Source: Candidatus Merdisoma merdipullorum (GTDB lineage Bacteria; Bacillota; Clostridia; Lachnospirales; Lachnospiraceae). From it: DNA of 36,255 nucleotides. Within the stretch, counting starts at the first letter, position 1. The number at the start of each line of letters is the position of its first letter. Both the position numbers and the translations under genes were made by a program. The notes under the pieces are model-generated. The model was not told where the DNA came from. It ran no database searches and saw only the letters and a program-made list of their open reading frames with translations. The DNA is taken from assembly GCA_018715645.1 (NCBI GenBank), contig DVLE01000050.1, forward strand, positions 1 through 36,255. The letters run 5' to 3'. Positions 7,737 through 36,255 of this stretch are shown here, piece by piece.

Positions 7737-9125
7737 CTAATTTTCATACGTATAGATCAAATGGATCCCCTCGTCGGTTCTCTCGCAATCCATGGCCAGA
7801 GCAATTGTCTCCGCCTCATCCGGATCTGTAATGCCGATTCCTATCGTATAGCCCTGACGCAGCAGATCCGTAAACGGAATGTGATTCTCTGTCTCTATCT
7901 GTTCCCCTGGCATCAGCTCTGACAGGCGTATATCCACCGTCTCCCAGTATTCCAGATTTCCTTCCAGATCGTAGACATACATCATCACAGGCCAATCCCA
8001 GTAAATCGGCGCAATCCCGGAGTTTTCCCAGGTCATATAGACGTCGAGCTGATCGTCCGCAAAGGAAAACTGGGTACGCAGGCTTGAGATATAGAACCGG
8101 TAGCCCAGAAGCTCTCTGACTGCCTCAGCTCCTGGCAGCGCGGCCTCCTCGTCCTCTGGCGTGTGGGGACCGATAAACGACATATGGGAACGCTCAATCA
8201 GATCGAGCGTCGTTCCAAGCTCCGCATCCAGCATCTCCTCCATAGAGAGCGAACTCGTAAATTCGCCTCCCACCGGAGCCGTCTTCCAGAAATCAGGGAG
8301 AGGCTCAAGAATCAGCTCTCCATTCTCCGTCGGATATCTTCCGCCGTTTTCGATCCAGCCCAGCCATTCCTCCGTGTCGCCTTTGTGTCCTGTCATATCA
8401 TTATATAACCCCAGGCCGCCGTCTGCAACCATTATGTAGTTTCTTCGCATCAAAAGTCTTGCATTGTGGAAGCTGTTCGAGTAATCCAGCACGTACTCCC
8501 AGCATATATCTGCGTCCGGCAGAGGAGCGACTCCCTCGTCCGTATTTGTATGCCATTCTCCCCAGTGTCCCAGGCTTCCCAGCTCCACGTAAGCCAGGAA
8601 ATCATCCTCATTAAAATATTCGGCAAGAGCCGCTACCGCCAGCGCATGGCGTTCCCGGAAAAAGCTGCTGCCATAGTCAGGCGAATAGCCGCTTCCATAG
8701 GAGGTGTCATAAAAATCCCCGTCTCCCGTTCTCTCGTACAGCCACTGAGGTATATCCATATGCCCTGCTTCTCTCGGAACATCACACATAAAACGCAGAA
8801 CGGCATGCTTATTCTGCGCCTTCCACTCAGAAATATGGTACTTTTCTTCCAAAGCCGCCGTATCATACTGTCCCTGCACCGGCTCCCAGTCCGCCCAGGT
8901 AATACCGATATAAACAAGATTCGAGTCTTCATGTCCGCTCTCCTCGTCGGCCGCCACCGCGTAACCGATGAGCGGATTGTAAAGACTCTCGTCGGTCTCC
9001 TGGAAGGTCACAGTCTGATTCAGGCGGTACCGGTAAGGCAGAATATAGAGCAAAAGAGCCGCTATGGCTATGGCCAGCGCCAGCATCACGATGTAGGGGG
9101 CCGGGGAACTCTTTTTCTTATCCAT
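7737..9125 (-). CDS. DUF4832-type putative extracellular glycoside hydrolase
   Basis: The 462-aa protein has an N-terminal membrane anchor (TM about 11-30) and an outside domain. The family recognition (DUF4832, often with DUF4874) is from memory and rests on features such as YNPLIGYA, ITWADWEPVQGQYD and YVELGSLGHWGEWHT, which resemble the barrel strands of GH42-like clan A glycosidases. A C-terminal beta domain with a MTWENSG segment follows. It is the last gene of the pel-type operon and overlaps the DUF4956 stop by 8 bp, so it is translationally linked. A role in trimming or releasing the exopolysaccharide is plausible, taking the place of the hydrolase domain of PelA, but this is inference. 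No catalytic pair has been proven here. Confidence 0.65.
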   Translation of the reverse strand: MDKKKSSPAPYIVMLALAIAIAALLLYILPYRYRLNQTVTFQETDESLYNPLIGYAVAADEESGHEDSNLVYIGITWADWEPVQGQYDTAALEEKYHISEWKAQNKHAVLRFMCDVPREAGHMDIPQWLYERTGDGDFYDTSYGSGYSPDYGSSFFRERHALAVAALAEYFNEDDFLAYVELGSLGHWGEWHTNTDEGVAPLPDADICWEYVLDYSNSFHNARLLMRRNYIMVADGGLGLYNDMTGHKGDTEEWLGWIENGGRYPTENGELILEPLPDFWKTAPVGGEFTSSLSMEEMLDAELGTTLDLIERSHMSFIGPHTPEDEEAALPGAEAVRELLGYRFYISSLRTQFSFADDQLDVYMTWENSGIAPIYWDWPVMMYVYDLEGNLEYWETVDIRLSELMPGEQIETENHIPFTDLLRQGYTIGIGITDPDEAETIALAMDCERTDEGIHLIYTYEN

Positions 9126-12360: not shown

Positions 12361-15300
12361 TTAGTCCCCTTCCACTGCCACGTAATCCGATATGCTTCCA
12401 TCTTCATTTACATAGAAAGATTTCGCTCCGTAAACCTTACCGATTCCGCTGACAGAATAATAATCATAGCAGTCCTGTTCATAGCCCGATGTATTTTGGG
12501 CCCTGACGCGCAGGAAGTACTGCCCCGGTTCCAGGCTGTCAAAGCTCCAGATCGGAAGGCGGAGTCCCTCCTCCTGCGCGATAACATTCTGGAAATTGTA
12601 ATCCGTAGCCAGCACCGCGCTGTAGGTGATCTCCTCCCCGTCCATATCATAGGAAGCGTCCCATTCTACGGAGAGACCTCCCTCCTCATTCTCATAGGGA
12701 GTACCTACAAAGAAGGGCCAGGGCTTCTCCAGACTTTCCAGATAATACTGGTAATTTCTTTCCACCTCGGAGGGCAGGACCTCCACCAGCATATCGTACT
12801 CTGCGGAAGATACCACCGTATTCTCTGAATCCGCTCCTCCGTAGAGGTAGGGCTTCACCACCTCCGCATAGCTGTCCGCCATCTCCCGCAGCTTCTCGTA
12901 GGTCAGATAGTTCTGCCGCAGATCCTCGACGGCCGCCGTCAGCATCTCCACATACTGGTCCTCCCGGAACATCCGGCTGATCACTACCAGACGGGTAAAC
13001 TGCGTCAGCCCTCTCTCCCAGGAATCTCCTTCCATATAGTCTGTCATATCAAAATACGTCCGCCGAAAGGCCGCGTCGTTATCCCAGGAGATAAAATAAA
13101 ACTTCTCCGAATTCAGAGGGCTGTAGATGTACGCGTTTCTCGAAGCCACATCATAATTTCCTGTAAGAATATGGAATGCCATCCAGTAACAAATATTTTC
13201 CGGATCAAAATGCTGCTCTATCGTTTCTTCTATAGGTATCGCATAATCGTTTAGCTTTTCCAGCACCTCCAGAAGCTTGGAGTGATCGTCACTCCCCTTT
13301 ACCTCCAGATATTCCTCGAAGGCGTCCAGATCGTAATCGGGATCCGTCGCCAGTTTCATCTCCTCATACTGATACCACTCAAAAGCCTCTACCTTATAAA
13401 GCTGTCCCCGGCTGTCCAGACCGTGATTTTTCAGATAGGTCTTGTTCATCTGCTCTACCTGAACATAAAGCCCATAATCCACAAAATCTGCTCCCGCGCC
13501 CTGAGTCTCATCCTTTACATAGAGATGGACAAACTGCGTCCGGGCGCTCATCATCTGCGGGATCTCCTTCATCAGATCATACATCAGCTTATTGGTAAAG
13601 CGCAAAGGTATATTGACATGCTTATTCAGCGCCAGGGTTCTCTGTCCTCTCCACTCGCCCTTTCCATCCTTGATCCGTATTTTATAATTTTTATCCTCCG
13701 CCTCGGAGGATGTCTGTCCCCGGATCTGGACCGAGACATTGGGCGTCGTCTCGCCGTAGCCAAACTCTCCCTCCACAGGGCCGTTCTCGTCCCCTATCTG
13801 CAGAAGTCCTTCGCAGTTGTACCGTTCCAGATCATTCTCCTCATAATAGTAGACCGAATTGGCGTTCACATCCGCCCATGTATGGTTCGTATTATCCGCC
13901 GCGTTTCCCTGGGTTACGGTCAGATACATCGTAACCACCGAAGTCTCGTCGTCCTCCGCGTAGATTGCGTCGTTATCCCGAAAGGTCTCCTCCGGCGCCT
14001 CCTTCTCCACATAGTCCCTTGCAGGCTGCTGCTCCGCCTGTCCGGACTGTTCCTGTGTCTCCTGCTGCCCGCAGCCGGAGAGCAAAAACAAAAGAAGCAG
14101 CGAGAGAACGGCGGCCTTTTTTCCGCCTTTACGTGCCCGCTTCTGCCTCTTCCTTCTTTCCCTTTCCTCCAGATAGTCGCAGAGCTTCACAAAGATGCCG
14201 GACTCATCCCTTCCTACGACCGCCTGGCGGCAGAGCAGATGATAGGGCAGCTTTCGCGTATAAAATTCCAGGCGCAGCCATACTACCAGGTAAAAGGAAA
14301 GCGCTCCTGCCAGAAAACCAAGGCCGAAAAACTTCACGGGACTGAAAAGGATCTGCAGAATCGTTCCCGCGACGCTTATGACCGCAAAGGCCAGCGTCCC
14401 CAGAAGCGCTCCCGTGTAATCCTCAAAATACAAAAGAATCAGCATGATCGAATTGCTGATGGCATAGACCCCATATCCCGCGCACAGGAAGCGATAAATC
14501 CCCATGGACACATCCGTAATGCCTACAGGCATCAGTTCCAGGAGGAAGCCGCCGAACACGACAAAGAGAATCGTGGAGATAAGCTGCTTGTGTCCGCTGA
14601 AGGTCAGCTCCTGCTGCAGAACGGAAAGCATCTCGTTTTCCGCCTGTTCAATATCCTGAATCGAGCCCTTGTCGTTGAACAGGCTGTAATAATTCCGGTA
14701 ATGAGGATAAAAACGCACCTCTACGGAAGTCACGAAATTCACCGTAGTGATCAGAATCGAAAAAAAGGCAAACAGGGCCGGAACGTCATGGGTAGGCGCT
14801 CCGTAAAACAGTCCCTCCACCTGCACCGCCAGGGGACCGAAATACATGATGACCAGATGGGCAAAAAGCCCGATATTCACAAAACCGCCGGTAAAGGCCA
14901 GGGAGCGGTAGCGGTCAAACCACCGAAGAAAGGAAAATTTACTGCCCCTGCTTTTCGGAAAATAATCCAGAAGCAGCTTGTAATACCATGCCATCAGGAT
15001 TCCATAGGCCACGATCACACAGAGCATCAGACTGACGATGCTCACCCAGCCCAGAATCACCAGAATCAGCGCCAGCAGAAAGCCCACCATCAGGGAGATG
15101 GCAAAGGCCAGCACGATCGCCTTGTAATCCTTAAGCGCCGTCAGATAGATCATCTCGGTCCATACCACGATCAGAATCAGGGCAAACCACAGGCAGAGAA
15201 GCTGATAGGCCGGACGCACGCCGGAAAAGAACAGAAAGATGCCGTAGAGCGCTCCGCCCAACACAAGCATGATCGAACACGCTCCATAGAAGGAAGGCAT

Positions 15301-17006: not shown

Positions 17007-18865
17007 ACCTTCTTCTTGATCATTACCTGCGCTTCCTCTGCCTTTATCAGATAGAGATTGCCCTGCAGATGCTCTATGGTTCCGCCGTCCACGCCTTCTT
17101 CGGAGGTATCCGGCTCCCAGTCGTTGAACCGGGCGAGGAGCCATGCCTCATCCTGGAAATCAGAGAGGGTAAGCGCAAGTCCCTCCTCCCCCTCCTCACG
17201 CTCCACATCCACATAGTAGAATCTCTGAACCGCCCCCGCCATCTCAGATCCGGTCAGATAGCGGATCGAGGGAGCCGCCTCGTCTAGCCATTCCACGTAA
17301 TCGCAAAGTCTGTGATACCTTTCCTCCCAGCCAAACTCCTCTCCCTGATCTGTAGCCAGCACGTCGTCTGAATTCTGAAAATGGGAACTCACATAGTGAA
17401 GATTCAGCTCAGACATTGCTCTCAGACGCATATCATCGTCCAGAATATAACCGGAAATCACGCGGGGCGTCTCGACAATCCCATCCTCCGACACCTCGTA
17501 TTCCTGCTCATAGATTACGTCGCTGCCAAGGTAAAGGCTGGCTATGGCGCGGATATTCGGGAATTCTTCCACGATAAGGCTGCGCCCCTCCTCGGAGAGA
17601 ACATTGGAGGGCGGCACATATACCTGAAAGCTCTCTTCCGGATAAAGTCCCTCGCAGAACTCCTGCAGCTCCTCCAGAGACGCTTTCATGTCCTCGTAGC
17701 TTCTCCACGTTTCATAGCCGTCGTACTCGCCTCTGTAATCAAAATTCTCCAGGCACAGCGGCATATGGTTATAACCATGATACCCCAGCTCGCCTCCCAG
17801 ATCCAGAAGGGAATTTCCAAAATACATAAAGCGCTGGGAATCCGAAAGGCTCTCAAAGGGCCCTTCTACCTGATCGGAGTATTCTTCGATCACCATTCCC
17901 GTATATTTGATTCCGTATTTCTCACTGAGGCTGCTGACGTCTCTCCACCAGATCTGCGTATAGAAATCGCCGACGCTCAGTCCGTAATCTTCCTCGATAT
18001 GCTGTCCCTCTCCGCTGGGAATCGGCGCCGGGAAGTCATCCAGATAATAGGCCGCCCCGTTGACGACCGGCCAGGCGCAGACTTCTCCCAGCATACTGTA
18101 GGCAGCCGCGTAGATCCCCCGGTAGCCCTTATCGTAGATTCCCAGATTGACAAAGACAATCTTACCTTTCTGATAATCTCTCTGCCACAGAAGCGGCACC
18201 TCCGCCTCGTCGTTTGTCGTGACGGATACCCGGCACTCGCTGTCAAGGGAGACCGACAGGGAGGATTCAAAGGGTTCCTCTATGGGGTAGTCCGTCTTTC
18301 CCTGGCCGAGAAGCAGTTCGTCCTGAAGCCTCAGGCCCGGAGTCTCATAAAGCGTAGGTCCCACGAACTCTATTCCGGCTCTCGCACAAAGCCATTCAGA
18401 GACCGTAGTGATCTCCGGGACAAGGGCGATCAGCAGATCCCCGCCTCCTGCCACCCAGTCCGCCAGATCCAGGATCTCCTGCTCCGTCTGGTTATAACGC
18501 CCATAGCCCAGGACCACCTTTTCAAACGCCTCATAGTCCGGAATCTCCTCCCGGCTTATGTCCACCTCGCGAAAGCTCACCTTCATATCATGAAGGATCT
18601 GGGGCATCTGCTCATGGAGAAGCTGGGAACTGGCATCCTCGCTGTCCCACAGATACAGGCACTCTGCCTTTCCGCTTTCTTCCCCATCCGCCGCCGTCCC
18701 GGATGCCTGCGTAAAGCTGTCGTTATCAAGAAGCGCCACTGCCGCTTCCTGGGTTCTTTCCTCTCCAAACCAGAAATTCTGCCCGATCAGGGCGACCGTC
18801 AGCATCACAAAGGCCGCAAGAAGAATAATTACCGGCGTATAACGGGGTTTTCTCTTTCTCTCCAT
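17003..18865 (-). CDS. DUF2194 protein, PelA-like deacetylase candidate (copy 1)
   Basis: The 620-aa protein has an N-terminal TM anchor (about 10-29) and an extracellular part. Residues about 68-260 resemble a flavodoxin/GATase-like alpha/beta domain. Residues about 265-500 look like a polysaccharide deacetylase barrel, with DDFP (276-279) as the likely metal/base Asp pair and HGYNH (363-367) as the HxxxH metal motif. The last 100 residues are beta-rich. This order mirrors the middle and deacetylase domains of Pseudomonas PelA without its GH166 hydrolase domain, so a role in deacetylating the exported Pel polymer is likely but inferred. It is 13 bp downstream of its paralogue and overlaps pelF by 4 bp. 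Confidence 0.78.
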   Translation of the reverse strand: MERKRKPRYTPVIILLAAFVMLTVALIGQNFWFGEERTQEAAVALLDNDSFTQASGTAADGEESGKAECLYLWDSEDASSQLLHEQMPQILHDMKVSFREVDISREEIPDYEAFEKVVLGYGRYNQTEQEILDLADWVAGGGDLLIALVPEITTVSEWLCARAGIEFVGPTLYETPGLRLQDELLLGQGKTDYPIEEPFESSLSVSLDSECRVSVTTNDEAEVPLLWQRDYQKGKIVFVNLGIYDKGYRGIYAAAYSMLGEVCAWPVVNGAAYYLDDFPAPIPSGEGQHIEEDYGLSVGDFYTQIWWRDVSSLSEKYGIKYTGMVIEEYSDQVEGPFESLSDSQRFMYFGNSLLDLGGELGYHGYNHMPLCLENFDYRGEYDGYETWRSYEDMKASLEELQEFCEGLYPEESFQVYVPPSNVLSEEGRSLIVEEFPNIRAIASLYLGSDVIYEQEYEVSEDGIVETPRVISGYILDDDMRLRAMSELNLHYVSSHFQNSDDVLATDQGEEFGWEERYHRLCDYVEWLDEAAPSIRYLTGSEMAGAVQRFYYVDVEREEGEEGLALTLSDFQDEAWLLARFNDWEPDTSEEGVDGGTIEHLQGNLYLIKAEEAQVMIKKKV

Positions 18866-28712: not shown

Positions 28713-28810
28713 GGGCGAACCCTGCTGCGGATGAAAGGAACAGGGAGAGCGCCCAGATACAGATTAAGATTTTGTTAATACTGATAGCGCATTTATGCGG
28801 GTTTCATGGC

Positions 28811-29243: not shown

Positions 29244-29780
29244 ATGTCGATATACCGAACATTAATGACTGCTGAACATGCTCCAATAAGCCGAGGGTTT
29301 CAAGTAAACCCTGAGCATTGCAACAATCCTGGCCATTATGAAACTTACATAAGTCAGGATTGTTTTGCTGATCAGAAACAAGGAATGGGCGTAACCCATG
29401 CTTTTATTGATGAAGATGAAAACAGCGGAACAAAGAAAATCGCAGGATATATAACGCTTCGCGGAAGTTCTTTAATTATGGAAAGCGGAGAAGATTATAA
29501 ACTTGGATATCCCGCTTTGGAAATTTCAGAGCTGGCGGTAGATAAGGATTATGAGAATCAAGGCTTAGGCACAGAAATGGTTAAGTTCGCCATTGGTGAA
29601 GCTGTTGAATTAAATGAAGAACGCATTGGATTTCAATATGTTATTCTATGTGCCGATCCCGAAGCTGTTGGATTTTATCAAAAGTTAGGATTCAACAGTA
29701 TCCGTCAACTTCAGGAAATACCAAGAGAACATAGAAACAGTTCATGTGTTCCAATGATGATGAAAATTGCTACCGTATAA
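29244..29780 (+). CDS. GNAT family N-acetyltransferase
   Basis: The 178-aa protein has the GNAT acetyl-CoA fold: ISELAVDKDYENQGLGTEMV near residues 95-115 is strand 4 plus motif A with the Q-x-G-x-G/A-type loop (NQGLGT), and ADPEAVGFYQKLGFN near 138-152 is motif B with the usual FYxKLGF. It would transfer an acetyl group to an amine on a small molecule, protein or charged tRNA; the substrate is not evident. Its AT-rich codon use resembles the neighbouring phage genes more than galE or pyrG, so it may be prophage cargo. It forms a pair with the 44-aa gene just upstream and converges on the 1551-aa virion-type gene across a shared terminator. Confidence 0.85.
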   Translation: MSIYRTLMTAEHAPISRGFQVNPEHCNNPGHYETYISQDCFADQKQGMGVTHAFIDEDENSGTKKIAGYITLRGSSLIMESGEDYKLGYPALEISELAVDKDYENQGLGTEMVKFAIGEAVELNEERIGFQYVILCADPEAVGFYQKLGFNSIRQLQEIPREHRNSSCVPMMMKIATV

Positions 29781-29815
29781 AAATAAGGCCCCGGTTTGTT
29801 CCGGAGCCTTATTTT
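29780..29815. terminator. Bidirectional terminator between GNAT and the large phage gene
   Basis: AAAATAAGGCCCCGG (29780-29794) pairs with CCGGAGCCTTATTTT (29801-29815) with one mismatch and a 6-nt loop, with T-runs on both strands. It overlaps the last base of the GNAT stop codon and the stop codon of the minus-strand gene. Confidence 0.9.
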
Positions 29816-32800
29816 TATGAGTACGGATTTTTCTTCCAAGAAGGATTGTACATATGCCAATAATATGCCTTCTGTAACCTCGTAAGATTTGTAGAATCGA
29901 GATACGCTTGGGCTTCATCTTGTGTAAGGGAACCGTTACCACTTGTATCTGCACCTGATTTGAATGTCAAATACTGCACCAGTCCGGTCGCTCCCTGTTC
30001 CTGGTAAATATCATATAGTTTCGCATTGTTATCGCTCATATCCTTTCCGACCACATATTGAAGCGCAATCGCGTTTGAAAGACTATAAAGATCCGATACC
30101 ATATCTGCCTGATTAGATTGTAAAAGGCCAGTGGAATTCTGTCTCAACGCCTCAATCAATTCATAAGATGTTTCCCCAGCAATTCGCTGTGCTTCTGAAT
30201 ACTCCTCGCCCGTCATACGCTGGCCACCCCCATAATTACGCGATATGCTTTGTGGAAGTACGCCTGCTTCTCCTGTGCTATTATACAACTCCTGCAAATA
30301 ATTGTCATTTGGAGTCGTCCTATCTTCCGAATAATATCCAGGGCTAAAAAACTGATATGCCAGATTTCCCAGGAGGCCGCCTCCGCCCTGAAAATTCTCT
30401 TGCGTCCGGCCCCAGGCGTCCCGGTATTCCGGTGCATCATCGGACAGGAAGGGAATCTTATTCCTTGTGCTATTTACAGTGTATTCCAGCTCACCGGCCG
30501 CACCAGTAGAGTCAGAGTAAGAGGTCCGGCGTGTATTATCAATAGCACGCGCTGTCGCACCTAAAAATGATGGAATGCCTTGCGTAAAATATCCAGTCAA
30601 AGCGTTTGTGGCTGCCAATGTAAGTCTTTCCGTATCATCTTCTGCATATTGCGCAGCACTTAAAGCATCGCTAACTCCACTCATCATAGTTGTTTCAACG
30701 ATTGGATCTGCCATGCTGGCAAATGCGCTTATTAAATCGCCTGCTCCTAATCCACCGTTTGCTTCATGTTCTTTCTGGAGTTCCACTCCTACTAATAAAG
30801 GCAGTATAGACGGGGCCGCCCAATCTATTGTATAACTACTCCCATCCCCCAAAACAAGAGAATAATTCTGCGCACCCTGAAGCTCATCGAAACTTGCTTG
30901 ATCAGCATCTTGCTTTCCAGTTCCTCTTATTATTCCCTTTGAGCCAAGATACCCACCCAGTGCCATTATTCCAGTGCCAGTTAATCCAGATGCAAGGCCG
31001 TCCAAAACTTCCGAAGCCGTAAATGCCCCGTCTTTCACAGAACGAAAAAGTTTTATTGCAGTAGGAATAAAGTTCGCCGGCGAATATCTGAGCGCTGATA
31101 TAACAATATTACTGGGAGTTTTCTTGAAAGGCATAATACCTTCCACTAGCGCACTTATAGCCTTCGCTCCGCTTCCTCCCTCATTTAAAGTATTACTGAA
31201 TTGAGTAATAGCTTTCGCAAATGCGTTGTCCTCATGAAAAGTCGCTCTCTGGGCTTCCTTGATGGCAAACTCCCTGCCGCGCTGCACAAGGCTCTGGACA
31301 GCTTCATCAGCAGAATTCAACGCATCAGCTCCGAGACCATTCGCTTTCAGGTATCCGGCCAGACTCGTACTGTACTTTGCTTTCAATCCCAGCCAGTCCT
31401 CCGCTTCCAGAAGGCCGCTGTTTTTATCTGCCAGCCACTGGATTGCTCTGCCCGGACCACTTCGGAAGGCCTTGGCCTGCCCTTTGATTCCGCCGGTCAC
31501 ATTGTACTTGCTACCCGATAAAGCCCTGTATGCTACATTCTCTGCATCATCAGCGGCCGCACTTATCAGTCCCCGGTCTGTCCCGCTCAGAGGATTCAGC
31601 GCAGATCTAGTCCTCTGTATGCCATTCGGGGCGATACGGTCAAGAGCCGCCTCCATAGCGGCCGCCAGATTATTTTTCACGCCGGAAACCACGTTCATGC
31701 CGACGTTTCCGATTAGATTTCTCTCATGCGTCGCAGGCTTGCTCAGCATAGACAGATACCGCCACGCATCCCATTTATCTCGCCAACTTGATGTCGTGAC
31801 TTCATTTGCCAGCAGCGCATAGGCTCTTTCCTCAAGATTCACCCGCCGGCGGCTGTTCTCAGGGAATTTATTGGCTTCATCGAAAATGGAAATCACCTGG
31901 TCGATAGTCTCGTCAGAAATTCCATACTGCTGTGTAGCCAGGATAGAATTTACCATGCCCTCCACCTGATCGGCATATCCATTCTGAAGAAGTCTGGCAA
32001 TTTCCGTGGCATCCTCAGTATCGACTTTTCCTGAAATGCTTGACTGACTGATTATGTCGTTGACGGCCTTCTGAATCTCATCTCCATCCACAACAGTCCG
32101 GCTCTGAAGCATCTCATCCAAACGGCCCAGGATTTCATCTGTAACGCGCTTTGCCTCTTTTGCATCATTCGGAGAAGCGGCCGCCCAATCTTTAATCTCC
32201 GCATCAAGGATATTTTGAGCTTTGGCAATCGCTCCTTCTGCCGTCCGGGAATATTTTTCAAGGGCCTGCAGCCGCACACCGGCATCATGGCCTTCGCTGG
32301 CAATTTTACGGGCAATTTCACGTACAGCGTCGTGATCCCCGGAATCTGCAGCACTTTTGAGCAGCATCATACCGCCGTCAAAGTCCTGCGCGGTCTTCCA
32401 GTTTGAAGACATGAGCCGGTCCGTTTCGCCGACGAAATCTTTTGAAAAAGCTTCCTTCGCCGCACGGATACTTTCATCCTCAGTTACCGTCCTGAAATTC
32501 ATCCGTCCGGACTCTATTTCTTCTCGAAGAATTGCCTGCATCTCCGGATTATTCTTGACAATATCAGAATTTTTCAGGGTGTTTGTTGCTGTCCGCGTGA
32601 CATACTCTCCATTTTGAGCCATTCTTCCCTGATAATCAATATTCGTATTGTTTCCACGGAAGAACTGCTCTGAACCTGCTGAAACCTGCTCCCAAAGGTC
32701 TTCCGATGTTTCACCAGAATTATTCTGTGGGCGGTACGCCAACCTGTCCGCGCTGCGCTCAAAAGTACTAATAGGATTTGATATGCTTTCAGACACATCG

Positions 32801-34470
32801 TCAATATCTTTGAGTTGTGGGATGCTTTGAAAGTTTCCCTTACCTTCAAAAATATCATCAAACTGCTGCCGTGCATCTTCCACAAGATCGCTGATTCCGG
32901 GATACTCCCGGCCGTATGTATATGTTGTCCCTGCACGTTTCCGAGCGCCGCTTTTTGTAAAAGTGCCTCCCTCCGTATATGTGCGCCCCTGCAACGCCTC
33001 ATCAAGCCTTCCAAGCGCACGGCTGGCATTGTCGGCAGCCTGCATAGATCCGGTATTCTCAAATTCCACAATGTTTGTTCTAAATGAATCTAAATCATTC
33101 AAAAGGGTATCATCGCCATACATCCGCACTAGCTTTGATACCTCATTGTCCAACTTGCTGAAAGAAGAATTTTTTGGAACTGAAGTCTTCGGCATAGACG
33201 TAATTTTCTTTGGCGCTTCCGCAAAATCTAAAGCATCCATCTCATTCACATTCGACATGTCGATAAAATCCTCTGTCTGACGGACCGCTGTCTCCGGGAT
33301 TGCATCTGCGACCGCTCTGGATGCTGTTTCTGCCGTGTTATCGCTTGATTTGGCAACCTGTTCGCCCAGGGTTGATAAATCGCCCATTTGCGCAATTCTA
33401 TCTCTTAAATATGGAATTTCCATATTGTCTACTGATGTCCTGCGGAGTCTATTTAATGCCGCTGATGCCGTCATACCAAGCATCTCGCCGCCAGCATTAA
33501 GAGCAAGATTCTGTAAAGTGCTTTCCGTCGCCAGCCCTGCGACATCTCCGGCAGAAGCTCCATTCTCAACAGCATCAACCATCCGAGGTACAGTATCCAA
33601 ACTTATATCCAGCATCATATCGCCAAGAACATTCTGGATATGCTTAGCACCTTCTTGTACTGCTGCTTGGCTCATTTGCCCTCTAGTAGCCGCATTCGCC
33701 AGTGTACTCGCAGCCTGTCCGGTCATATTACCAAGAGCAGGAATAGCATTGACAAATTGTGAACCAAGATAATATCCTGCCAAATTTCCACCAAGAGAAC
33801 CTATGGTTGATGCAACCTTATGTTCCTCATTCAGATCATCAACCTCATCTGCAAGTTGTTCGGAATCAACAAGATCTGTTCCCAGCAAAGGATCAACATA
33901 CTTATCAACTGCCCCGGCAAATTGCTTCGCCCCAGGGAAATTATATAGAGCATTTTTTACGAATGCTTCTACGCTTCCCGTTTCTCTGTTTTCACTTCGT
34001 TGCACACTTTGATCTTGTGTAGCATATGACACAAAATTGTCAAAATCATCGCCTGTCAGTTCCGTTCCTCCAGGAAGAACTACCTTCGTTGCATAGTTTC
34101 CACCGGCTTCCGCTGTAGATTTAGAAATAGCGTCACTGATCGATTCCATTTCTTTCACTTCAGCATCAGTCATTTGATAATTTTTCTGCGTGTATTTCCG
34201 AATACGCTCAAGAATCTGATCGTCAGACAGATTACCAGATGCTCCTCTGCTTTGTGTTTTGGATCTCGTACTAGAAGCGGAAGGGGTAGGGCTTGCCTGC
34301 CCTACCCCTGACTGTTTCGGCTTACTTCTTGAGATAACGGCGTCAACATCTGCGGTCGTGTAAGAACGGCCCGTTCCTGCCTCTCTCGCGTAGCCTCCTT
34401 TTTTATTTTCTGCAAGATTGCTACTGCCTGCGATAATCTTTTCAACATCTTTCGCCGTATATCTCGCCAT
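29815..34470 (-). CDS. Very large phage virion/polyvalent-type protein (1551 aa)
   Basis: The N-terminus carries two short repeats (RYTAKDVEKIIAGS and SYTTADVDAVISRS), and long helical, Ala/Asp-rich regions follow. A region around residues 1120-1220 (PFKKTPSNIVISALRYSP, then Gly/Ala-rich hydrophobic helices) resembles, from memory, large polyvalent protein-associated (LPD) modules in phage proteins. A canonical EF-hand loop, DTSGNGSLTQDE (1508-1519), lies near the C-terminus. There is no signal peptide or catalytic motif I can name. Size, gene order and composition suggest an internal virion or ejection protein rather than an enzyme. AGGAGG precedes the ATG, which is 12 bp after the 355-aa gene stop. 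Confidence 0.7.
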   Translation of the reverse strand: MARYTAKDVEKIIAGSSNLAENKKGGYAREAGTGRSYTTADVDAVISRSKPKQSGVGQASPTPSASSTRSKTQSRGASGNLSDDQILERIRKYTQKNYQMTDAEVKEMESISDAISKSTAEAGGNYATKVVLPGGTELTGDDFDNFVSYATQDQSVQRSENRETGSVEAFVKNALYNFPGAKQFAGAVDKYVDPLLGTDLVDSEQLADEVDDLNEEHKVASTIGSLGGNLAGYYLGSQFVNAIPALGNMTGQAASTLANAATRGQMSQAAVQEGAKHIQNVLGDMMLDISLDTVPRMVDAVENGASAGDVAGLATESTLQNLALNAGGEMLGMTASAALNRLRRTSVDNMEIPYLRDRIAQMGDLSTLGEQVAKSSDNTAETASRAVADAIPETAVRQTEDFIDMSNVNEMDALDFAEAPKKITSMPKTSVPKNSSFSKLDNEVSKLVRMYGDDTLLNDLDSFRTNIVEFENTGSMQAADNASRALGRLDEALQGRTYTEGGTFTKSGARKRAGTTYTYGREYPGISDLVEDARQQFDDIFEGKGNFQSIPQLKDIDDVSESISNPISTFERSADRLAYRPQNNSGETSEDLWEQVSAGSEQFFRGNNTNIDYQGRMAQNGEYVTRTATNTLKNSDIVKNNPEMQAILREEIESGRMNFRTVTEDESIRAAKEAFSKDFVGETDRLMSSNWKTAQDFDGGMMLLKSAADSGDHDAVREIARKIASEGHDAGVRLQALEKYSRTAEGAIAKAQNILDAEIKDWAAASPNDAKEAKRVTDEILGRLDEMLQSRTVVDGDEIQKAVNDIISQSSISGKVDTEDATEIARLLQNGYADQVEGMVNSILATQQYGISDETIDQVISIFDEANKFPENSRRRVNLEERAYALLANEVTTSSWRDKWDAWRYLSMLSKPATHERNLIGNVGMNVVSGVKNNLAAAMEAALDRIAPNGIQRTRSALNPLSGTDRGLISAAADDAENVAYRALSGSKYNVTGGIKGQAKAFRSGPGRAIQWLADKNSGLLEAEDWLGLKAKYSTSLAGYLKANGLGADALNSADEAVQSLVQRGREFAIKEAQRATFHEDNAFAKAITQFSNTLNEGGSGAKAISALVEGIMPFKKTPSNIVISALRYSPANFIPTAIKLFRSVKDGAFTASEVLDGLASGLTGTGIMALGGYLGSKGIIRGTGKQDADQASFDELQGAQNYSLVLGDGSSYTIDWAAPSILPLLVGVELQKEHEANGGLGAGDLISAFASMADPIVETTMMSGVSDALSAAQYAEDDTERLTLAATNALTGYFTQGIPSFLGATARAIDNTRRTSYSDSTGAAGELEYTVNSTRNKIPFLSDDAPEYRDAWGRTQENFQGGGGLLGNLAYQFFSPGYYSEDRTTPNDNYLQELYNSTGEAGVLPQSISRNYGGGQRMTGEEYSEAQRIAGETSYELIEALRQNSTGLLQSNQADMVSDLYSLSNAIALQYVVGKDMSDNNAKLYDIYQEQGATGLVQYLTFKSGADTSGNGSLTQDEAQAYLDSTNLTRLQKAYYWHMYNPSWKKNPYS

Positions 34471-34482
34471 GCTTTATCCTCC

Positions 34483-35550
34483 TTACATACTATACCCAAG
34501 CTGAGAAAGGATAGCTGCTATAGAATCACTACTTACACTATTGTTAGCCAGTGTCTGTATAATAGAGTTTGCGCTCTGTCCATTTGCCGCCATCTGCTGC
34601 GCCAACCGTAAAGCATACCTCGGCGCCCTTGCGGTTAATCCGGAAGAACTTCCCTGAGTAGTGCTTACTGATGCGGGAGTATTACCCGGTTCGGTCTGCT
34701 CGGTCGGCGTATATGCTGCCTGATTATTTGTTGCCGCACTCATAGCTGCAAGATAAGTCGGATCCACGTCCATAAGCCTGGAAATCTGCTCATCATAAGC
34801 CTGTGCAAGCGCGTTTTGCCGATCACTTTCAAATTGTGTCAAATACTGCGCTCTTTGCAGTTCATCTGCTGCTAACTGCTCATTATAAGCCTGCTGTGCA
34901 GAATTTCTATTTTGGCTATACAGATTTTCCAATTTTCCAAGATTTTCATTGGCTGTTGTAGCAATGGCATTTCTGGCATTCCCGTAATTATTTTCAAGAC
35001 CTGCCATTGTTGTTTCGCTTGCGCCTCCGGAAAGACCTTGAGCCGCCATATTCTGAGCTAAATTTCTCTGGGACATCATTCTGTTGATATATGCCTCGCG
35101 CGCCGCATTCGTAGCATCTGTATTGATCTCGGATCGAGAGGCATTATAATCTGTTGCGAGATTTTGCAGTGTGCTGTCCAAATTTCCTTTAAGAATCTGC
35201 CCTCTCTGATCAAAAGCAGAATTCATGGCCGCTACATTTCGTTCATAGGCTTCATTGGCTGCCCTTATCCTTTGCTGTTCAAGCTCTCTTTTTTGAGCTT
35301 CCAGAGCAGCAAGATACGCCTTCCACTGTTCACTTTGATCTACAGTATTAGTATTGCTGCTTCCCCCAGAACTGGAACTTCCACGGGTAGACGTAATCGC
35401 GCCGGTTCCAGAACCACTGCTACCATACCGTTCTTCATAAGGATCTCGACCTGTGGAATTGCTTCTCCCCGAAGAATTCTGACGCTTTTTTAATACATTA
35501 TTTGTCGCATTCTTTATAACATTACTGCCAAATATATTTGCCATTGACAT
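34483..35550 (-). CDS. Putative phage virion protein, Ala/Asn/Gln-rich coiled coil (355 aa)
   Basis: The protein has a Ser/Gly-rich low-complexity N-terminal region (about 20-75). A long Ala/Gln/Asn-rich coiled coil (about 80-265) holds the segment AAQGLSGGASETTMAGLE, which is common in phage head or ejection proteins. A Thr/Ser-rich linker and a C-terminal helical tail with two similar units (SANSIIQTLANN, SSDSIAAILSQL) follow. No catalytic motif is seen. It is co-transcribed with the 1551-aa gene. Two starts are possible: ATG 35550 (3 bp after AAAGGAG) and ATG 35544 (9 bp after it), the latter better spaced. Its promoter region abuts the left arm of the 27-bp inverted repeat. Confidence 0.7.
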   Translation of the reverse strand: MSMANIFGSNVIKNATNNVLKKRQNSSGRSNSTGRDPYEERYGSSGSGTGAITSTRGSSSSGGSSNTNTVDQSEQWKAYLAALEAQKRELEQQRIRAANEAYERNVAAMNSAFDQRGQILKGNLDSTLQNLATDYNASRSEINTDATNAAREAYINRMMSQRNLAQNMAAQGLSGGASETTMAGLENNYGNARNAIATTANENLGKLENLYSQNRNSAQQAYNEQLAADELQRAQYLTQFESDRQNALAQAYDEQISRLMDVDPTYLAAMSAATNNQAAYTPTEQTEPGNTPASVSTTQGSSSGLTARAPRYALRLAQQMAANGQSANSIIQTLANNSVSSDSIAAILSQLGYSM

Positions 35551-35566: not shown

Positions 35567-35593
35567 TCAGAACACTTGTTTACTAAATTCCAG
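35567..35593 (+). repeat. Left arm of a 27-bp perfect inverted repeat (putative recombination site)
   Basis: Starts TCAGAACACT and ends AAATTCCAG, identical over 27 bp to the reverse complement of 36149-36175. The outer 9-mers (TCAGAACAC and, read inward from the other end, CTGGAATTT) are related as imperfect half-sites sharing GAA, with a 9-bp core, as in recombinase crossover sites. Confidence 0.85.
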
Positions 35594-35897
35594 AACCAAT
35601 AATAGCTTCTCGTGGAAGTATTTCAATGATCCAATCAATGCCGTCAAGAAAGGCGGAAGCGTGACGTTATCATGCGGTTCAAACGCGTCCGGGATTCCGG
35701 CTGGCGATATGGGGACTTTGTTTGTCCTTCCAGAAGAATTCCGACCTGCAATCACGGTACGCATGATTACTTTCCCAACATCAAATATACAGATCACGAT
35801 AGATGCGCTCGGAAATGTAACTGCATACAATTACGGCGATGCAGTATCAGGAAATACGGCGGCGAGATTTACGATGACTTACATAGCCGCATCATGA
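35568..35897 (+). CDS. Start-less tail-fibre C-terminal module 1 (silent cassette)
   Basis: Reading rightward from the left arm, the frame QNTCLLNS continues into about 100 residues of compact, phage-fibre-like beta sequence. These include WKYFNDPINAVKKGG, GTLFVLPEEFRPAITVRM, and a terminal IDALGNVTAYNYGD then ARFTMTYIAAS, and it stops with TGA at 35895. No ribosome binding site or ATG lies upstream, and the frame meets a TAA at 35550-35552, so it cannot be made as an independent protein from this position. A GTG at 35661 is internal to the domain. The shared frame with module 2 through the repeat implies it is attached to a fibre N-terminus by recombination. Confidence 0.75.
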   Translation, partial: QNTCLLNSRTNNSFSWKYFNDPINAVKKGGSVTLSCGSNASGIPAGDMGTLFVLPEEFRPAITVRMITFPTSNIQITIDALGNVTAYNYGDAVSGNTAARFTMTYIAAS

Positions 35898-35901
35898 TTT
35901 A

Positions 35902-36174
35902 CTAGCCTCTTGTCTTTACCCAATCGCCCCATGTACCGGACAAATACCAGCGCTCATATTGGATAGGAGAGTTATATGCAGTGTATCTTTGCAGGCAAAC
36001 CTTGCCGTCAATTGAGGGAAGAATTTCTACATAGCCATTGCCTGTACCAGGCGGTTTGTTCGTTATGGTTGACGCTGTGTACCCAAAGGCTAAAGAGAGG
36101 AAATCATTAAGATCTCCTTCTATAGCTCGTATGACAGTGTTTTGCTTACTGGAATTTAGTAAACAAGTGTTCTG
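35902..36174 (-). CDS. Start-less tail-fibre C-terminal module 2 (silent cassette)
   Basis: Reading leftward from the right arm in the same frame (QNTCLLNS) gives a different, 90-residue ending. It contains AFGYTASTITNKPPG, GNGYVEILPSIDGKVCLQRYT and the terminal YERWYLSGTWGDWVKTRG, a pattern typical of phage tail-fibre or baseplate receptor-binding tips. It stops with TAG at 35904-35902, only 4 bp from the end of module 1 on the other strand. No start codon or ribosome binding site precedes it, since upstream in frame is a TGA. This frame was found by translating the minus strand directly. Confidence 0.75.
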   Translation of the reverse strand, partial: QNTCLLNSSKQNTVIRAIEGDLNDFLSLAFGYTASTITNKPPGTGNGYVEILPSIDGKVCLQRYTAYNSPIQYERWYLSGTWGDWVKTRG

Positions 36175-36175
36175 A
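36149..36175 (-). repeat. Right arm of the 27-bp perfect inverted repeat
   Basis: Exact reverse complement of 35567-35593. Together the arms bound a 555-bp segment (35594-36148) filled almost completely by two convergent coding modules. Confidence 0.85.
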
Positions 36176-36181
36176 TTTCAT

Positions 36182-36206
36182 AAAAGGCCCCGGATTTCTC
36201 CGGGGC
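36182..36206 (-). terminator. Terminator for a minus-strand gene entering from the right
   Basis: On the minus strand GCCCCGG (36200-36206) pairs with CCGGGGC (36187-36193) over a 6-nt loop, followed by CTTTTA. It lies just after the stop at 36228-36230 and before the right repeat arm, so the silent cassette is insulated from transcription from the right. Confidence 0.8.
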
Positions 36207-36227: not shown

Positions 36228-36255
36228 CTATGACGTCACGATGATCGCATCATAT
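36228..36255 (-). CDS. C-terminal end of a phage gene running off the right edge
   Basis: The only minus-strand frame open to the right edge and ending just before the terminator reads YDAIIVTS then TAG (36230-36228). Endings of this kind are common in tail-fibre tip proteins. It may be the last residues of the currently expressed tail-fibre gene, but eight codons are too few to be sure. Confidence 0.35.

Follow-up and report, generated by a model that had tools for sequence, protein, structure and literature searches.

Among described systems, the Rin shufflon comes closest to the locus reported here; it is known from dnaJ2 prophages of Bifidobacterium (PMC6109161) and from clade 1 prophages of Eggerthella lenta (PMC8778435). 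In these systems, silent variable segments lie beside a gene with a constant RBP N-terminus, repeats of 11 and 8 bp stand at the start of each variable C-terminal segment, and a phage tyrosine recombinase, present besides the integrase, adjoins the array (PMC6109161, PMC8778435). Fibre C-termini are also inverted by Gin, Cin and Min, which are serine recombinases, a Gin-type fibre shufflon being carried by phage FRphi (PMC13418256), and inversions around prophage tail fibres are on record in Proteobacteria (PMC5903667). Open-access titles and abstract openings described neither a separate start-less fibre store nor such a system in Clostridia.

The system analysed here resembles Rin in having a tyrosine recombinase apart from the integrase, short in-frame repeats and a constant N-terminus with silent segments. 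It differs in that the recombinase gene is located close to the packaging genes, at the opposite side of the late region, and in that a two-module fibre switch is accompanied by a further two-module cassette set apart from it, behind the endolysin gene. With Gin, Cin and Min it has in common the fibre C-termini and a predicted switching by DNA inversion in a phage, but no serine recombinase was found on the prophage contigs C21, C34 and C56. We consider it probable that the further cassette serves as a distal store (D locus) of two silent modules for a Rin-like fibre shufflon run by a phage-encoded, Xer-like tyrosine recombinase.

The window, that is the whole stretch of DNA analysed (36,255 bp), is the complete contig C21 of a metagenome-assembled genome of 97 contigs and 87% completeness; the contig ends 80 bp to the right of the cassette. 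The features of the window, and those of contigs C34 and C56 to which they are compared, are as follows.

28763..28779, plus strand: presumed attachment-site core ATTAAGATTTTGTTAAT, common to C56:20797-20813
29244..29780, plus strand: GNAT acetyltransferase, with the presumed att core on one side and the late genes on the other
29815..34470, minus strand: presumed virion protein, 1551 aa, conserved among related phages
34483..35550, minus strand: presumed virion protein, 355 aa, next downstream of the cassette, with relatives in L009, G334 and G171
35567..35593, plus strand: left repeat arm, site D2, pointing against the direction in which the fibre is read
35568..35897, plus strand: module 1, start-less, part of P0001, 109 codons, stop at 35895-35897
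35902..36174, minus strand: module 2, start-less, P0002, 90 codons, stop at 35902-35904
36149..36175, minus strand: right repeat arm, site D1, in the fibre-gene direction
36187..36206, minus strand: terminator-like hairpin separating the cassette from the endolysin gene (three such sites in the stretch, 1.6 expected)
36228..36255, minus strand: 3' end of the amidase/SPOR endolysin gene, which begins on C34
C34:13811-14446: fibre gene, whose collagen-like part matches tail-fibre families (PHROG)
C34:14092-14115: site F1, 24 nt, inside the fibre gene at the entry into the module
C34:14807-14830: site F2, 24 nt, behind the fibre gene at the start of the second, convergent module
C56:684-1706, minus strand: Xer-like tyrosine recombinase, 340 aa (Phage_integrase, 1.9e-28)

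Comparison of repeats within the window showed that the two 27-nt arms are 100% complementary with 555 nt between them, as the sequence-only reading of this DNA had stated. Both arms are read in one common frame (QNTCLLNS) that leads into two different modules, whose stops face each other across a gap of 4 bp. The frames ahead of the arms close after 5 and 1 codons and hold no start codon, so both modules are start-less; on the common frame, the missing starts and the convergence alike, reading of the open frames agrees with what had been claimed. When the cassette interior was dinucleotide-shuffled, 7 of 20000 shuffles left both strands open and convergent (at least 85 codons on each strand, convergence within 30 bp).

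The description of the modules as phage-fibre-like was right in kind, while their own family matches are weak: P0002 matched phrog_3971 at 5.7e-5, and Pfam gave no match for either module. Module 1 resembles the expressed fibre tip of prophage L085 (37% identity over 93 residues; pairwise E=4e-6, which becomes 0.0059 when the search space is set to 1000). Homology of P0002 to the L085 fibre is not claimed from phrog_3971, since the two match different parts of this 331-position profile (117-178 and 190-302, respectively), and the profiles of P0002 and A4, when compared, did not match significantly (probability 3.9%). No relatives of P0001 were found in IMG/VR or in phage records, and the same holds for the neighbouring 355-aa protein in phage records and GTDB contigs. 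Structure prediction, which had been proposed for the modules, was run on P0001 with AlphaFold without an alignment and gave a poor model (mean pLDDT 37), as it did for the C34 fibre (45).

A fibre gene had been expected on the minus strand to the right of the cassette. Judged from its sequence, the gene cut by the right edge is instead the end of a SPOR-domain amidase (endolysin): the minus-strand translation there reads ...YDAIIVTS*, which completes the amidase running off C34 in its SPOR domain. Another prophage of this genome, on contig C10, has an amidase that ends in GYDAIIVQA. C34 (16792 bp) was found through a relative of a 620-aa tail-region protein from the prophage of Lachnoclostridium sp. 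An196 (G334). It carries a weak terminase match, the fibre gene, a Tad2-like gene and the amidase cut at the contig end, along with presumed portal and tail genes that we name by position. C56, inspected by eye, has an early region resembling that of An196; a weakly matching integrase lies at one end (C56:19477-20685; 6.4e-5, below the curated cut-off) and a strongly matching second tyrosine recombinase, separate from it, at the other.

The 17-mer ATTAAGATTTTGTTAAT is common to C56 and the window in direct orientation; another common 16-mer is not colinear. With the host flanks joined at this att core, the other 15 genomes of the genus gave one aligned piece in 4, adjacent matches in 3, a match to a single flank in 7 and to neither in 1. 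The contiguous and side-by-side cases assign the C56 recombinase to the prophage of the window, and the split amidase together with the An196 gene order places C34 in the middle. On this sequence evidence, C56, C34 and the right end of the window are one prophage of about 45 kb; C56 as far as the core, the whole of C34 and the window onward from 28763 sum to 45,098 bases. The GNAT acetyltransferase lies inside this prophage, perhaps as cargo, provided that the att core has been assigned correctly. The Tad2-like gene on C34 (L024 14902-15396; PF11195, the anti-Thoeris family, 1.3e-21) stands behind the fibre switch, as does that of An196 (L013 10569-11117; PF11195, 4e-21).

The fibre gene lies about 2.8 kb upstream, on C34, and the PHROG matches of its collagen-like part identify it, at the level of sequence families, as a fibre gene. 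It supplies a constant RBP N-terminus with an internal site (14092-14115), and F1 and F2 are 83% complementary over 24 nt. The F locus thus has the same convergent two-module design as the window cassette plus a fibre N-terminus, and its repeats, like those of the cassette, are short, in frame and at the beginning of each variable segment. The proposal that the modules await a constant fibre gene outside the window holds insofar as such a gene exists on C34, but that gene has a two-module switch of its own, and the window cassette is a separate locus, distal from this switch.

The core AATTCCAG is common to all four prophage sites (F1, F2, D1 and D2), and all have it in one and the same codon frame. 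At the core, F1 agrees with the D arms in 11 bases (CTAAATTCCAG) and F2 agrees with them in 8; the pattern GAACnnTnGTTynnTnAATTCCAG fits both window arms and most back-of-switch sites. A third copy of the repeat, which was to be looked for in a minus-strand fibre gene, was not found in the genome at up to three mismatches in the 21-nt core, where 2 places match. Sites beyond the cassette do exist at the C34 fibre gene, as diverged relatives rather than a perfect third copy. A looser site pattern, searched in 397 genomes, occurs at 4 places in this one and is lacking from the remaining 396; the exact repeat is found in no IMG/VR stretch and in none of the 15 other genomes of the genus. No F module was found at the D locus, no D module at the F locus and no module common to both. 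Corresponding sites in relatives range from F and D cores that differ by two bases (An196) to 14 bases in common among all four sites (IMG/VR phage G422).

Likely to be the enzyme behind fibre switching, as far as sequence can tell, is the tyrosine recombinase on C56. Each of the 20 proteins aligned has R, H, R, H and Y (the lysine column aligned poorly, and we make no claim on the lysine). A Rin-type recombinase lacks an arm-type DNA-binding domain; in the C56 protein, Pfam recognizes just a SAM-like and a catalytic domain, preceded by about 60 residues. The gene does not flank the array: it sits at the end of C56, the fibre switch at C34:14.1-14.8 kb and the cassette in the window. The prophage of An196 has a 27%-identical recombinase at the corresponding position. 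The C10 prophage encodes a recombinase 95.9% identical to that on C56 (C10:219309-220331), together with a fibre switch (L155 9837-10338, C10:201837-202338) that carries CTAAATTCCAG and whose hinge has 26 bases identical to the C34 fibre gene, and G411 combines a 66%-identical recombinase with two switches bearing TAAATTCCAGG. Recombinases 47-72% identical to that of An196 go with other sites in G413, G415, G419, G422 and MT839831.1, where TAAAT is present in the fibre-side or only site copies; in MT839831.1 the related recombinase directly precedes a start-less cassette. Of the serine or tyrosine recombinase expected nearby, it was thus a tyrosine enzyme that was found, on C56 of the same prophage, and no serine enzyme on the prophage contigs. 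The An196 prophage also encodes a 284-aa serine recombinase with Resolvase and Recombinase domains (L015 16122-16976, G334). This is shorter than expected for a large serine recombinase.

Tyrosine recombinases also invert type I restriction specificity genes. The proteins of C68, MT835621.1 and MT838471.1, of the same recombinase family and 33-35% identical, have targets that look like hsdS (by eye, not by HMM) and not like fibres, and five hsdS-like loci scanned contained no convergent cassette. On C68 (L025), the 35%-identical recombinase stands beside an apparent type I restriction specificity gene, named by eye.

The prevalence of the design was assessed by scanning for exact inverted repeats of at least 12 bp whose two arms have a common reading frame and lead to stops no more than 100 bp apart. 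Applied to 74 loci (1.14 Mb) before the recombinase survey, this first scan returned, at 13 bp or more, the window cassette, the C34 switch, two cassettes of An196 and a hit in L082, with 0 control hits. The An196 cassettes were met again in L041 and L081; the L082 hit was dismissed, lying inside an ordinary gene or without fibre context. A stricter scan of 41 pieces (745 kb) of recombinase-bearing genomes returned 29 hits against 0 in the control; the 29 include duplicates and some that we attribute to chance. The same strict scan of 58 other relatives (940 kb) gave 3 hits, one of them the An196 prophage again, with 5 in the control. A scan at k=9 was discarded as too lax (173 control hits), and the two G422 cassettes come from a laxer scan (gap up to 150 bp) whose control gave 4 hits in 544,436 bases. 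By judgement we dropped duplicates from overlapping pieces, nested hits (L129 9091, L135 9702, L150 2599) and hits in ordinary genes or without fibre context (L015 7391, L082 137, L087 16002, L128/L129 816, L134/L135 3974, L135 8974, L139/L140 19637, L146 16021, L150 314, L151/L152 and other 10-12-bp hits).

An accepted cassette was present in 8 of 15 recombinase-bearing virus records, each covered in full (G411, G412, G413, G415, G419, G422, G423, G424) and absent from the other 7 (G414, G416, G417, G418, G420, G421, G425), as well as from the partial loci L104-L108, whose recombinases are 29-32% identical. TPELB_ph1, with a second tyrosine recombinase near presumed tail genes, was rejected because its AT-rich repeats were not distinguishable from chance ones. 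Among 18 classified cassettes, 10 have an open frame of at least 100 codons on one arm; in the other 8, neither arm exceeds 36 codons. Six of these eight are clean distal start-less cassettes (the window, An196, MT839831.1, G422 and two in G419); the G412 cassette, part of a five-site array, and that of G415, with uncertain arms, were not counted as distal. Start-less cassettes apart from the fibre switch thus also occur in An196 and in the IMG/VR phages G419 and G422. The distal cassette follows a presumed endolysin gene in the window, G422 and MT839831.1 (named by eye in the last two), but the last gene in An196. The G412 array (L126 4058-5927) is a compact multi-module array in which AACTCCTCTTT occurs five times, twice in one orientation and three times in the opposite one, at about 0.4 to 2.3 kb downstream of a recombinase gene.

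Signs of exchange were seen among relatives. The prophages of An196 and L085 (Candidatus Mediterraneibacter intestinipullorum) align at 93.4% over 5977 bp and 95.2% over 6090 bp. One alignment stops exactly where the fibre repeat (8893-8906) ends, at L013:8906, the other at 17654, 5 bases beyond the distal repeat (17635-17649), and the modules differ beyond both points. The first unaligned stretch extends beyond the switch as far as L013:11565, and from 17654 onward there is no alignment; at sequence level, each difference has one border only at a repeat, which fits exchange there and is no proof of it. The C10 switch and G411 each have one module clearly related to the other's (1.8e-14), with unrelated partner modules, from which it would seem that fibre tips travel between phages having this site. 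A 23-bp repeat is present at the 3' end of a tRNA-Gly gene (L089 13846-13868) and behind the distal cassette of An196 (L013 18466-18488); the two copies are likely the ends of the An196 prophage.

If the window cassette is a distal store, the recombinase would invert F1-F2 and so pick the fibre tip, inversion of D1-D2 alone would have no effect, and recombination between F and D sites would bring D modules to the fibre gene. By one possible route, F1 x D2 recombination would flip the stretch with the lysis genes and join a D module to the fibre N-terminus; recombination of the inner pair, D1 x F2, would then turn the lysis genes back, leaving the two cassettes in swapped places. The effect would be receptor-binding tips held in reserve beyond the two-state switch. 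Support comes from the F locus of the same prophage, with its identical design and sites of common core and frame, from the 95.9% (C10) and 66% (G411) relatives of the recombinase that accompany same-core fibre switches, from the distal start-less cassettes of An196, G419 and G422, the last with sites 14 bases alike, from MT839831.1, where a related recombinase adjoins a start-less cassette, from the loss of identity between the An196 and L085 prophages at the fibre repeat and just past the distal one, and from the likeness of module 1 to an expressed fibre tip. The receptor-switching shufflon layout recognized in the sequence-only reading is supported in part, by the start-less modules, fibre gene, related sites and candidate recombinase; its Gin/Cin type is unsupported, with no serine recombinase on C21, C34, C56 or C10.

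Several observations weigh against a distal store: 7 of the 15 recombinase-bearing virus records lack an accepted cassette, the modules have weak family matches, no Pfam match and poor structure models, the F and D cores of An196 are two bases apart, and the differences between An196 and L085 are one-sided at the repeats. F x D exchange may also be weak or absent, given the 8 (F2/D) and 11 (F1/D) common core bases. This divergence, paralleled in An196, the 27-bp identity of the D arms, as might be expected of arms that pair with each other, and the lack of a module common to F and D would all suit an autonomous silent switch or a relic, in which D1-D2 was left by duplication or a move and perhaps still inverts, feeding nothing into the fibre. 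We regard this as unlikely, as both frames are intact and convergent (against 7 of 20000 shuffles), and distal start-less cassettes recur in other phages, with sites identical to the fibre's in G422.

A serine invertase of the Gin/Cin/Min kind acting on the repeat from elsewhere appears very improbable: in this incomplete genome, Resolvase domains (PF00239) occur at 4 places, on C66, C42, C30 and C81, and these could act in trans, but there are none on C21, C34, C56 or C10, and it is the tyrosine recombinase of the prophage whose relatives track the site core in C10 and G411. Still harder to credit is a chance repeat, or two unrelated small open reading frames with no fibre role; weak family matches and the lack of Pfam hits would be expected of it, whereas the same design stands at a real fibre gene of the same prophage, the strict scan of 41 pieces gave 29 hits against 0 in its control, and few shuffles reproduce the cassette.

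Going beyond the distal store that we favour, we tentatively propose a cassette pool, which we think rather unlikely: an expressed switch and remote start-less cassettes with compatible sites might be exchanged whole by nested inversions, and co-resident prophages whose recombinase and site core are nearly alike (C10 and C56/C34/window, their fibre hinges agreeing in 26 bases) could trade tips in trans. Such a pool would be a little like integron cassettes, but the sites here are inverted.

The system would extend tyrosine-recombinase fibre switching from actinobacterial phages, where we found it described, to phages of gut Clostridia. It would do so with a remote recombinase and a separate silent module store, which start-based gene calling would miss. 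Recognizing such stores would predict the fibre variants that a lysogen can make, and points to a way in which prophages residing together could share receptor-binding modules.
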